Assembly (NCBI GenBank): GCA_020073005.1
Contig: JAIQFX010000009.1
Coordinates: forward strand, 1-64,000
Reading direction: 5' to 3'
Origin: Terriglobia bacterium
GTDB lineage: Bacteria; Acidobacteriota; Vicinamibacteria; Vicinamibacterales; CAVVIG01
DNA: 64,000 nt
Shown here: positions 50,278 through 56,688 of the stretch, piece by piece
How positions within the stretch are numbered: position 1 is the first letter of the stretch
Layout: each line of letters begins with the position of its first letter
Notes under the pieces: generated by a model
The model's database searches: none
What the model saw: only the letters and a program-made list of their open reading frames with translations
Told to the model about the DNA's origin: nothing
Position numbers and translations under genes: made by a program

Positions 50278-50736
50278 ATGATCATGTCTCGCCGCGATCT
50301 CGTTGCCTCATTCGCTCTGTTCGCCGAGGTCCTCGCATCTACGCGTCACGCCGACGCGCAGACGCAGACCACACCCGCCGCCGCGCCGCAGGCCCCGCGC
50401 CCGCCGGTGTTCAAACACGACCTGCCGAACGTGAATCTGGACGGCTGGGAAGTCACGGTCAGCTGGGTCGACTATCCGCCGGGACGCGTCGGCGCGCCGC
50501 ATCAGCATGCGGGATTCGTGCTCGCCTACGTGCTGGAAGGCGCCGTCATCGCCAAGATCTCGGGACAGGGCGAGGAGAAGACCTTCAACGCGGGACAGAT
50601 GTTCTACGAGCAGCCCGGCGCGACGCACGAGGTCTCGAAGAACGCGAGCCAGACGCAGCCCGCGCGGCTGCTGGCGATGATCTTCGCGAAGAAGGGCGCG
50701 ACGCTGACGACGCCCGTCACAGGCCGCGGGGCGTAG
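50278..50736 (+). CDS. Exported small cupin-domain protein
   Basis: A 152-residue single-domain cupin. The N-terminus SRRDLVASFALFAEVLAS has a twin-arginine-like signal ending at HADAQ. The metal site is seen in PHQHAGFVLAYVLEGAVIAKI (residues about 78-98) with a later His in PGATHEVSKNAS. Cupins of this size bind a metal and small ligands or act as isomerases; which one is open. The tail overlaps the 3' end of the converging STAS gene by 20 bases. ATG 50278 is preferred for its distance to TAGAAT; ATG 50284 is possible. Confidence 0.85.
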   Translation: MIMSRRDLVASFALFAEVLASTRHADAQTQTTPAAAPQAPRPPVFKHDLPNVNLDGWEVTVSWVDYPPGRVGAPHQHAGFVLAYVLEGAVIAKISGQGEEKTFNAGQMFYEQPGATHEVSKNASQTQPARLLAMIFAKKGATLTTPVTGRGA

Positions 50737-51094
50737 ACGGAGCGGCGGCCGGCTGGTCGAACGCCGCGATCGCGTCGGCCTCGGACGCGTACGTTTCGAA
50801 GATCGATCGCAGCTTCGTGGTCCTCAGCACCTCGTCGAACTTCGCCGAGACGGCGCACAGCTTCAGATTGCCGTGCGCGTTGCGGACGCGGATGAGATAC
50901 CGCGCCAGGAGTCCGAGGCCGCTGCTGTCCATGAAATCGACGCCGCCCATGTGCAGGACGACGCGTGGACAACGCGCGATCGCCTCATCGAGATACTTCT
51001 GCAGCATGCTCGACTCGGCGCCTTCCACGAGGCGGCCGCGGCACGTGAGGATCACGAGATCGCCGGCGCGACGGCTGTCGACTGAGAGCGGCAC
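50717..51094 (-). CDS. STAS-domain anti-sigma-factor antagonist-like protein
   Basis: A 125-residue SpoIIAA/RsbV-like switch protein that binds an anti-sigma factor or kinase and is controlled by Ser phosphorylation. The key motif VDFMDSSGLGLLARYL carries the phosphorylatable Ser57/58. Secondary-structure order matches the STAS fold: VILTCRGRLVEGAESSML, then VVLHMGGVDF and LKLCAVSAKFDEVLRTTKL. No partner kinase or phosphatase gene is adjacent. It starts at GTG 51094 with GGAG about 10 bases upstream. Confidence 0.9.
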   Translation of the reverse strand: MPLSVDSRRAGDLVILTCRGRLVEGAESSMLQKYLDEAIARCPRVVLHMGGVDFMDSSGLGLLARYLIRVRNAHGNLKLCAVSAKFDEVLRTTKLRSIFETYASEADAIAAFDQPAAAPSTPRGL

Positions 51095-51190: not shown

Positions 51191-52207
51191 TCAGCGCCCG
51201 GGCGTCGTGTAGATGGCCGTGTCGCGGTGAAACTCCGACCAGGCGAACCAGTACTCCGGCTCGAGCACGATCATTTCGAGCCTTGATCCTTTCAGCCGGC
51301 CGGAGACGCACTCGCCGTACGCGTTCCACTGCGAGCCGGTTTCCTTGTCGACGAGCGCCGACGCCTCGGCATTCGACGCGCTGAACGTCAACGTCCGCGA
51401 GCCGGCGCGCGCGACGAACGCCGTCGTCGTGTCGGATGCCGGCTGATGGACGATCAGCACCGGCTTCCCGCCGAGCATGTCGTTGATCACGCGCACGCGT
51501 CGCAGCGCTTCGAGCGGAAACGCTTTGCTCGCTCCGCCCACGTCGACGCCCAGGACCATCGTCTTTGGCTTCAGCCGATCGTCGTGATACGTGACGTCGG
51601 CCGGCGCGCTGCCCAGACCCGACAGCCCTTCGCGAATCATCTTGTTCTTCGCGGCAATCTGATCCACGTAGCCGGGCAGCGGCTTCAGGACGAGCGTGTC
51701 CGGATGCAGCCGGCGCCACTCCTGCCAGCTCGTCAGCAGAAACGGATAGAGATCGAGATGCGTGCCCTGCAGCGGACCGGAGATCGCCTGCAGGCTCGAC
51801 TGCTGCCAGCGGCTGCCGGTCTCGCGATCCTTGAAGACCTCGTTGCCTTCGACGACGCCCGCGTTGTCCAGCACCAGCGGCTGGCCCTTGGCTTCGGCCC
51901 TGAACACGAGGGCCGTGTTGCAGTAGCTTCACCAGGTGATCGCGATCGGTCCTTTCGGTGACTGATCTTCGACGAGGCCGTGCTGCGACAGGATGCCCGC
52001 AGGGTACGCCTTCGCGGTCGTCCCGCTCATCAACCCGATCACGCGATCGTCGTCGGTCATGAACGTCGCGTCGGCGACGCTGATGAACTGCGGATCGTGG
52101 ACGGCCGCGTACGGCAGACGCGGAGGCGCCGCCGTCTGCGCGGCGAGAAGCCGCCCCGCGAGGAGCGCGGCCGCCGCTGCCGACGCCGAAAGTATTCGGT
52201 GACTCAT
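51191..52207 (-). CDS. DUF3179 protein, candidate selenoprotein (in-frame UGA at codon 93)
   Basis: Function of DUF3179 is unknown; the CxxC-like motif suggests redox chemistry. The reading frame is open on both sides of one TGA (51931-51929). Before it: signal peptide, RVIGLMSGTTAKAYPAGIL and GPIAITW; after it: SYCNTALVFRAEAKG, DRETGSRWQQ, ISGPLQGTHLDLYPFL, then the second repeat of the domain (DRLKPKTMVLGVDVGG, DKETGSQWNAYGE, YWFAWSEFHRDT). In the family this position is a Cys of W/Y-C-x-x-C, so UGA replaces the first Cys (Sec93-Ser-Tyr-Cys96). A hairpin lies just downstream. Total length 338 with Sec. ATG overlaps the stop of the hydrolase gene. The alternative is a nonsense mutation or sequencing error. 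Confidence 0.75.
51896..51931 (-). promoter_or_regulatory. Candidate bacterial SECIS hairpin after the UGA
   Basis: On the coding strand, 14 bases after the UGA, GGCCCT-CGTGTTC-AGGGCC forms a perfect 6-bp stem with a 7-base loop whose second base is G. A competing stem AACACG-GCCCT-CGTGTT overlaps it. Both fit the rule that the loop lies about 16-37 bases from the UGA. Confidence 0.55.
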
Positions 52208-54850: not shown

Positions 54851-56056
54851 ATGAAAGTGACACGACGCGACCTTCTCGTCGGCGCCGCCGGCGCTGTCGC
54901 CCTGGGGAAAACTTCAAAGGCCGCCGCGGCGCAAGCGCCTGCCGCACCCGCCGATCCGACCAAGGTCCGCGGCAAACCGAGCAAGGCGCTCGGCACGCGC
55001 GCGGCGTTCGAGAAGCCGCAGCGCCAGCCGCGCGGCGCGACGTCGTCCGGCACGCCGCACCAGGATCTGATGGGCATCATCACGCCGTCGGATCTTCACT
55101 TCGAGCGGCATCACGGCGGCGTGCCCGAGATCGATCCGAAGAACTACTCGCTGGTCGTCCACGGCATGGTCGAGCGCCCGATCGTCTTCACGCTCGCCGA
55201 TCTGAAACGCTTTCCGCAGGTCAGCCGCGTGTGCTTCCTCGAGTGCTCCGGCAATCTCGGCCGGACGGCGCCGCCCGAGACGACGCCGCAGCAGCTCGCG
55301 GGACTGACGAGCACGAGCGAGTGGACCGGCGTGATGCTGTCGACGATCTTCAAAGAGGTCGGCGTGTCGCCGAAGGCGACGTGGTTTCTCGCCGAAGGAT
55401 CCGACGCCGCCGTCCTCACGCGAAGCGTGCCGGTCTCCAAGGCGCATGACGATGCGATGATCGCGTACGGGCAGAACGGTGAAGCGATTCGTCCCGAGCA
55501 GGGCTATCCGGCGCGCCTGCTGTTGCCCGGCTGGGAAGGCAATACCAATGTGAAGTGGCTGCGCCGCATCGAGCTGTCGGACAAGCCGTTCATGACGCGC
55601 GAGGAAACGTCCAAGTACACCGATCCGCTGACGAACGACACGGCGCGCATCTTCAGCTTCGTGATGGACGCGCGATCGCTGATCACGTATCCCACCTATC
55701 CGGTCGGCGTGCAGCGCGGCTGGGTCGAGATCCAGGGCATCGCGTGGACCGGCTACGGCAAGATCACGCGCGTCGACATCAGCACTGATGGCGGCAAGAC
55801 GTGGACCGCCGCGAAGCTGCAGCAACCCGTGCTGTCGAAGGCGCACACGCGCTTCCGTCATCTCTGGAAGTGGGACGGCGGCGAAGCGGTCATCATGTCG
55901 CGTGCGGTCGACGAGACGGGCTACAGGCAGCCGACGCGCGCCGAGTTGTTCGAGAAGCGCGGACCGGGCGCGGCCGGCTATCACATGAATCCGATCACGG
56001 GCTGGGTCGTGAAGACGGACGGCACGGTCGTCTACAAGCAGGAGGCGTGGGGATGA
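54851..56056 (+). CDS. soxC: Sulfite dehydrogenase molybdopterin subunit (SoxC/SorA-like)
   Basis: Oxidises sulfite (or a related sulfur oxyanion) to sulfate in the periplasm with electrons passed to a cytochrome c. The 401-residue protein has a twin-arginine signal (VTRRDLLVGAAGAVALG), the Moco domain with the ligand Cys in CFLECSGNLGR, LPGWEGNTNVKWLRRIEL, and the C-terminal dimerisation domain with VQRGWVEIQGIAWTGYGKI and VDISTDGGKTW. Length fits SoxC. The following cytochrome overlaps by 4 bases. No soxXYZAB genes are visible, so this is an orphan pair. Confidence 0.9.
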   Translation: MKVTRRDLLVGAAGAVALGKTSKAAAAQAPAAPADPTKVRGKPSKALGTRAAFEKPQRQPRGATSSGTPHQDLMGIITPSDLHFERHHGGVPEIDPKNYSLVVHGMVERPIVFTLADLKRFPQVSRVCFLECSGNLGRTAPPETTPQQLAGLTSTSEWTGVMLSTIFKEVGVSPKATWFLAEGSDAAVLTRSVPVSKAHDDAMIAYGQNGEAIRPEQGYPARLLLPGWEGNTNVKWLRRIELSDKPFMTREETSKYTDPLTNDTARIFSFVMDARSLITYPTYPVGVQRGWVEIQGIAWTGYGKITRVDISTDGGKTWTAAKLQQPVLSKAHTRFRHLWKWDGGEAVIMSRAVDETGYRQPTRAELFEKRGPGAAGYHMNPITGWVVKTDGTVVYKQEAWG

Positions 56057-56688
56057 TCGCTACACGCGCGCTCATGCTCGTCGCGACGCTCGGGTTGATC
56101 GGCGCTGCCGCCAGCGTCCCAGCGCAGACAGCGACGTCGAAAGCGCCAGCCGCCGCCAAAGCGCCCTCGACGTTCGGCATCGGACGGCCGGCGACGGCGG
56201 AAGACATCGCCAGGGTGAACATCGACATACATCCGGATGGGACGGGACTGCCAGCGGGCAGCGCGACGTCCGCCGACGGCGCGCCGATCTACGCGGCGAA
56301 ATGCGCGTCGTGCCACGGCAAGACGGGCAAGGAAGGTCCGAACGATAGGCTCGTCGGCCGCGTGCCTGGCGACGGCTTCCCGTTCGCGCGCGACCCGCGG
56401 ATCCCGCACACGATCGGCAGCTACTGGCCGTACGCGACGACGGTATTCGACTACATCCGGCGCGCGATGCCGCCGACCGAACCCGGATCGCTGAGGGACA
56501 CCGACGTCTACGCGCTCACGGCGTACCTGCTCTTCCTCAACGATCTGATTCCCGCCGACGCCGCGATCGACGCGACGTCGCTGCCGAAGGTGAAGATGCC
56601 GTCGCGCGATCGTTTCGTCCCGGATCCGCGCGGCGGGCCGACGCCCGCCACGCCAAAAGGATCGCGCGGTGGCGGCGCCGGACGCTGA
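56053..56688 (+). CDS. soxD: c-type cytochrome, SoxD/SorB-like
   Basis: Accepts electrons from the molybdopterin subunit. The 211-residue exported protein has a signal peptide (RALMLVATLGLIGAAASVPAQ), one heme site CASCHGKTG and an axial Met in RAMPPTEPGSL, followed by DTDVYALTAYLLFLNDLI, the usual SoxD helix. ATG 56053 overlaps the soxC stop. Its C-terminal Gly/Arg tail overlaps the sigma factor start by 20 bases. A single heme is normal for this cytochrome type; some SoxD proteins have two. Confidence 0.88.
   Translation: MIATRALMLVATLGLIGAAASVPAQTATSKAPAAAKAPSTFGIGRPATAEDIARVNIDIHPDGTGLPAGSATSADGAPIYAAKCASCHGKTGKEGPNDRLVGRVPGDGFPFARDPRIPHTIGSYWPYATTVFDYIRRAMPPTEPGSLRDTDVYALTAYLLFLNDLIPADAAIDATSLPKVKMPSRDRFVPDPRGGPTPATPKGSRGGGAGR

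Follow-up and report, generated by a model that had tools for sequence, protein, structure and literature searches.

A single TGA interrupts a frame of the DUF3179 family in the genome of a Terriglobia bacterium, and this locus raises the question of whether that codon ends the protein or is read as selenocysteine (Sec). The window analysed here is the whole stretch of 64,000 nucleotides from contig JAIQFX010000009.1 (assembly GCA_020073005.1). A preliminary description of this DNA had placed the frame at 51191-52207 and proposed a selenoprotein; its coordinates proved right, and the gene is encoded on the minus strand (Table 1). The interruption of the frame by one TGA, at codon 93, was likewise borne out. 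Once read through, the product matches PF11376 with 220.8 bits against a cut-off of 27, where residues 35-330 cover profile positions 6-292 of 292. This match lies above the gathering cut-off and runs across essentially the whole profile, which places the protein in DUF3179. An NCBIfam search with the protein gave no match. A genome-wide search returned this gene as the single DUF3179 gene of the source genome, with one TGA within it, and the residue context of the predicted Sec93 is ITW-U-S-Y-C-N-T-A.

Table 1. Features of the DUF3179 locus, in window coordinates.
Feature	Position	Strand	Remarks
DUF3179 gene, putative selenoprotein gene	51191..52207	minus	ATG at 52207; 338 codons + terminal TGA (51193-51191); codon 93 = TGA; PF11376 match
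In-frame UGA, predicted to be read as selenocysteine (Sec93)	51929..51931	minus	U/Cys column in relatives
Cys96, second residue of UxxC	51920..51922	minus	possible resolving Cys; not conserved family-wide
SECIS-type hairpin CGGCCCU-CGUGUUC-AGGGCCG	51895..51915	minus	apical loop 20 nt after UGA
Probable export signal, residues 1-24	52136..52207	minus	predicted from sequence; residues 1-20 low-confidence in model
N-terminal repeat, residues 30-178	51674..52120	minus	carries Sec93, His76, Asp81, Asp127; Rieske-like in model
C-terminal repeat, residues 206-338	51194..51592	minus	homologous to first repeat; without Sec/Cys and His
Cupin gene (Cupin_2)	50278..50736	plus	neighbour conserved in window clade only; not assigned to the same system

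Relatives of the gene were inspected for the residue that occupies the position of the TGA. PF11376 matches were obtained from 133 of 396 genomes sampled across Acidobacteriota, and many of these matches contain exactly one internal TGA. An alignment was built from 106 DUF3179 genes, nearly all from Acidobacteriota, where fetched loci were translated with TGA as U. The column of Sec93 holds UGA in 68 of the 106 genes, Cys (TGC or TGT) in 38 and any other residue in none, and no recurrent TGA occurs at any other column of this alignment. The preliminary description had located the TGA at the Cys position of relatives, giving Sec-Ser-Tyr-Cys, and had named an alignment of homologues as the check; with Cys or UGA only at the column, its placement stands. 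The clade of the window gene (tree support 100) is composed of metagenome-assembled genomes of gp2, gp3, gp6 and other Acidobacteria and carries UGA in 17/17 genes, such that the same TGA recurs in 16 relatives, which stem from several independent metagenome projects. The Sec/Cys label changes six times on the tree compared with 31 times when labels are shuffled, which indicates that Sec and Cys were swapped several times, in a direction that the tree does not fix. One natural Sec/Cys pair consists of sister groups to which the search tool gives one family code (f19): locus L115 (genome G084, with SelA and tRNA-Sec present) reads Y-U-T-L-C, and its sister group, including L092, L101, L103 and L109, reads Y-C-T-L-C. 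Neither SelA nor tRNA-Sec gave a match in any of the four genomes carrying these Cys sisters (G094, G171, G359 and G370).

The conserved column bears directly on the simplest alternative, namely that the UGA is a true stop in a pseudogene, a split gene or a sequencing error, with the downstream part dead or restarted at GTG 51907. Open reading frames of 92 and 238 amino acids can indeed be called on either side of the UGA, and the terminal codon of the gene is likewise UGA. Yet UGA stands at the same codon in all 17 clade genes from independent assemblies, and this is the sole column of recurrent UGA, in alternation with Cys. A split would place the break at a strand end within one domain of the structural model. 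Downstream of the UGA, dN/dS is 0.09-0.23 against eight orthologues (in three of the upstream comparisons, dS was saturated). Purifying selection thus extends past the UGA, so that the gene is not a pseudogene. We rejected the pseudogene and the downstream restart on the strength of the conserved UGA, the low downstream dN/dS and the alternation with Cys, and consider this group of explanations very improbable.

That UGA instead codes for a different amino acid such as Trp, whether genome-wide or via a tRNA, is more improbable still. The open frame alone is in its favour, but the DUF3179 gene and five of seven checked neighbours (encoding a STAS protein, a hydrolase, a molybdenum enzyme, a cytochrome and a TonB receptor) end in UGA, the column alternates with Cys and not with Trp, and the genome contains selenocysteine machinery. 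With UGA serving as a normal stop nearby and Cys rather than Trp at the column, a change of code was also rejected.

Inspection of the source genome for this machinery reveals SelA, a SelB of 645 amino acids, a tRNA-Sec (60.4 bits, anticodon UCA) and a SelD whose GUASK motif likewise contains an in-frame UGA. The SelB comprises a GTPase, a beta-barrel and two SelB winged-helix domains (SelB-wing_2 and SelB-wing_3; SECIS-binding). All four components that the preliminary description had listed for a check, selA, selB, selC and selD, are therefore found in the genome. The SelD at L020:1492-2430 (genome C133), with UGA in GUASK, is a selenoprotein candidate in its own right. Among scanned genomes with a UGA-type DUF3179 gene, the SelA match is full or substantial in 43 of 46, a fragment in one (G080) and absent in two (G317 and G046), where all three of these exceptions have a tRNA-Sec above the cut-off; scores near 50 bits possibly represent other long-armed tRNAs. 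SelA or tRNA-Sec is present in 46/46 genomes with UGA genes versus 25/34 genomes with only Cys genes among the matches listed. The chance of such a split, calculated by hand and with relatedness ignored, is C(34,9)/C(80,9) = 2e-4.

Decoding of UGA as Sec also calls attention to the RNA downstream of the codon. The preliminary description had reported a GGCCCU/AGGGCC hairpin with a 7-nt loop, CGUGUUC, after 14 spacer bases; this hairpin was recovered, and an extra C-G pair extends its stem to 7 bp. The 21-mer has an MFE of -12.1 kcal/mol. Passages of a recent review that set out rules for bacterial SECIS elements (bSECIS) give a loop of 3-9 nt with a G within its first two positions, a stem of 4-16 bp, a UGA-to-loop distance of 16-37 nt and an MFE of -7.5 or lower. 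The window hairpin falls within each of these ranges (7-nt loop beginning CG, 7 bp, 20 nt and the MFE above), in line with its earlier description as a hairpin of the kind expected for a bacterial SECIS. When compared with synonymous-codon shuffles, the hairpin is not unusual (z -0.72, p 0.26), so that on its own it proves nothing and support comes from relatives.

Among these relatives, the fold downstream of the codon has a mean z against the synonymous null of -0.95 in the 68 UGA genes versus +0.06 in the 38 Cys genes (Mann-Whitney p 6e-7, relatedness ignored). The hairpin of the sister clade with the motif W-U-P-L (29 genes) covaries strongly. Its left arm lies at the same position as that of the window hairpin, with a 5-nt loop (CGUGU, GGUCU, AGUUU and others), and 94.6% of its cells are paired. 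Five pairs are changed on both sides, where 21 doubly changed cells compare with 3.7 under shuffling and a maximum of 7 in slid registers; pairing in that register amounts to 47% for Cys genes. In the Y-U-T-L-C clade, the hairpin lies five bases nearer the UGA and is typically CCACACC-GGUCU-GGUGUGG. DUF3179 genes hence display two SECIS-type registers, with the loop after 20 nt in the window and W-U-P-L clades or after 15 nt in the Y-U-T-L-C clade, the latter being just below the published range. Both resemble E. coli-type bSECIS elements in having a short hairpin right after the UGA, in whose loop an early G precedes U or G.

Within the window clade itself, a second hairpin, CUGcAACACG/CGUGUUCAG, competes with the proposed one. 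Across the 17 genes, the proposed stem keeps 117/119 pair cells and the rival stem AACACG/CGUGUU keeps 100/102, and the two are inseparable there because the stretch is nearly invariant. Taken by itself, the proposed stem is more stable (-12.1 versus -8.4) than its rival, which could also be the SECIS of the window gene.

Because the UGA/Cys column is conserved, constraint persists downstream, the machinery is present and the hairpin covaries in relatives, the DUF3179 gene is very probably a selenoprotein gene. Codon 93 would be decoded as Sec by SelB and tRNA-Sec, with SelB directed by the hairpin that begins 14 nt downstream of the UGA.

To what kind of protein this residue would belong was addressed with profile comparison and structural modelling. 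The N and C halves are homologous to one another (hhalign probability 99.8%, E 4e-30), and Sec/Cys, His76 and most invariant residues are located in the N half. The AlphaFold2 model has a pLDDT of 92.9 for the whole protein and 95.6 for the N half alone; in the N-half model, the UPLC/CPLC motif occupies a turn that joins two strands. Both halves have Rieske-domain proteins as the listed matches of the structural aligner (including 2qpz, 2de7, 5cxm and 1rie; rmsd 2.4-3.3), with best Z scores of 9.0 for the C half and 8.9 for the N half over ~90 residues, where a best Z of 7-8 is also reached by models with no clear match. Foldseek E-values for the halves exceed 0.03 for the models compared, and profile comparison with the genome's own Rieske proteins is weak (probability 16% for the C half and none for the N half). 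Given a Z near the model background, such E-values and weak profiles, we term the fold Rieske-like and make no claim of membership; the model suggests that each DUF3179 repeat adopts it.

Rieske proteins carry Cys-x-His ... Cys-x-x-His ligands, whereas no such conserved motif exists in DUF3179, in which the only conserved residues in question are His76, Sec/Cys93 and, in part, Cys96. A weak profile alignment sets D127-x-x-T130-G-S-x-W134 over the Rieske CPxHGSxF. In the model, Sec93 would thus be positioned on the turn before the first Rieske ligand motif and not on the motif itself. Neither the protein nor its profile retrieved a relative in a sequence search of the PDB, and the structure searches returned no thioredoxin-fold protein among the matches listed, the model being mostly beta. 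The N-terminus predicts that the protein is probably exported to the periplasm.

Conservation in the 106 genes bears on the possible chemistry. Asp127 is found in 106/106, and His76 and Asp81 each in 101/106. Position 96 is considerably more variable: 82 genes have Cys, 14 have Ala, 7 have Thr and one each has Val, Asp or Ser, where Cys96 is absent from 21 of 68 Sec genes versus 3 of 38 Cys genes. Sec forms lacking the second Cys (UxxA, UxxT, UxxV, UxxS and UxxD) account for about a third of Sec genes and include L116, L118-L123, L125, L034, L043, L045, L049, L053, L070, L081-L083 and others. A simple mechanism of the UxxC dithiol type does not explain the 21 Sec genes without this Cys, and a nucleophilic selenol that uses but does not need the neighbouring Cys would fit positions 93 and 96 best. 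The product probably consists of two homologous Rieske-like domains with no iron-sulphur site, the first of which carries the Sec-Ser-Tyr-Cys turn along with His76, Asp81 and Asp127, all of them invariant or almost so. Under a selenol mechanism, Sec93 would attack a substrate in oxidised form, for instance a disulphide or peroxide, and Cys96, where present, would help to resolve the intermediate.

The same set of residues lends itself to a second interpretation, in which the protein is a selenoprotein whose Sec/Cys93, together with His76 and either Asp81 or Asp127, makes up a mononuclear metal site instead of acting as a redox catalyst. Resemblance of the fold to Rieske proteins, a CPxCG-like motif on an inter-strand turn, the conservation of His76, Asp81 and Asp127 and the dispensability of Cys96 are all consistent with a metal site, but Sec is known as a metal ligand mainly in hydrogenases and molybdenum/tungsten enzymes. 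Most prokaryotic selenoproteins are, moreover, thought to act in redox reactions, as stated in a passage of PMC9312934. We regard the metal site as unlikely and a selenol redox enzyme as the reasonably probable identity of the DUF3179 product.

Genomic context was examined for partners of this putative enzyme. A small cupin gene adjoins or is near the DUF3179 gene in 16 of the 17 window-clade loci, which span several Acidobacteriota groups, usually in convergent orientation, and other neighbours differ. In the window, the two are separated by a STAS-domain gene (50717-51094, minus). For 34 further DUF3179 loci, the surrounding 7.5 to 13 kb revealed no recurrent partner gene other than DUF3179 shadow frames. 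At 52204-52207, the DUF3179 start overlaps the stop codon of the hydrolase gene upstream, so that translation of the two genes may be coupled here. Elsewhere in the window, a gene for a sulphite-oxidase-like molybdenum enzyme and the cytochrome c gene directly after it overlap by 4 bases (54851-56688, plus). Only 4 of the 193 genomes in the window's class have an orthologue above threshold, and further orthologues stem from gp2 and gp3 bins. This rarity within its own class, together with the gp2 and gp3 orthologues, suggests transfer of the window-clade gene between Acidobacteriota classes. A tentative synthesis, which we offer as possible though somewhat doubtful in its entirety, is that DUF3179 represents a class of selenoenzymes whose scaffold is a duplicated Rieske-like fold lacking the cluster, with Sec on an inter-strand turn and functional even where no Cys is nearby (UxxA, UxxT and the like), and that the window-clade gene spread between classes with the cupin gene.

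The selenoprotein status of DUF3179 is already known as a prediction, and the window gene adds a member. PF11376 is tabulated as a predicted selenoprotein family with the motif UxxC/T in PMC9312934 (see also PMC13188914), with both articles citing an earlier study at that point, so that the family's description as selenoproteins, mentioned in the preliminary description, was right. The gene studied here shares with those tabulated entries the Pfam family, the Sec-x-x-Cys motif and the placement of Sec at the family's Cys column. The tabulated motif is UxxC/T only, whereas UxxA, UxxV, UxxS and UxxD are found here as well. A word search of the two articles returned no mention of Acidobacteria, and their passages on DUF3179 do not give the fold, the duplication or the SECIS registers. 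Relative to these two articles, the present analysis adds the Acidobacteriota distribution, the extra Sec motifs, the two SECIS registers, the duplication, the Rieske-like model and the cupin neighbour in the window clade. Judged by its genes, the Sec form appears widespread in Acidobacteriota, where DUF3179 may be under-annotated since gene callers that treat UGA as a stop split such genes in two. Natural Sec/Cys replacements, combined with Sec forms that have or lack the second Cys, offer a direct route to the contribution of selenium in a family without an assigned function. Relative to the UxxC selenoproteins of the thioredoxin, DsbA-like, DsbG-like and glutaredoxin types, DUF3179 has in common the Sec-x-x-Cys motif, probable export and probable redox chemistry. 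In contrast to these thioredoxin-type proteins, its model depicts an all-beta, duplicated domain with no thioredoxin-like alternation, in which the second Cys is optional.
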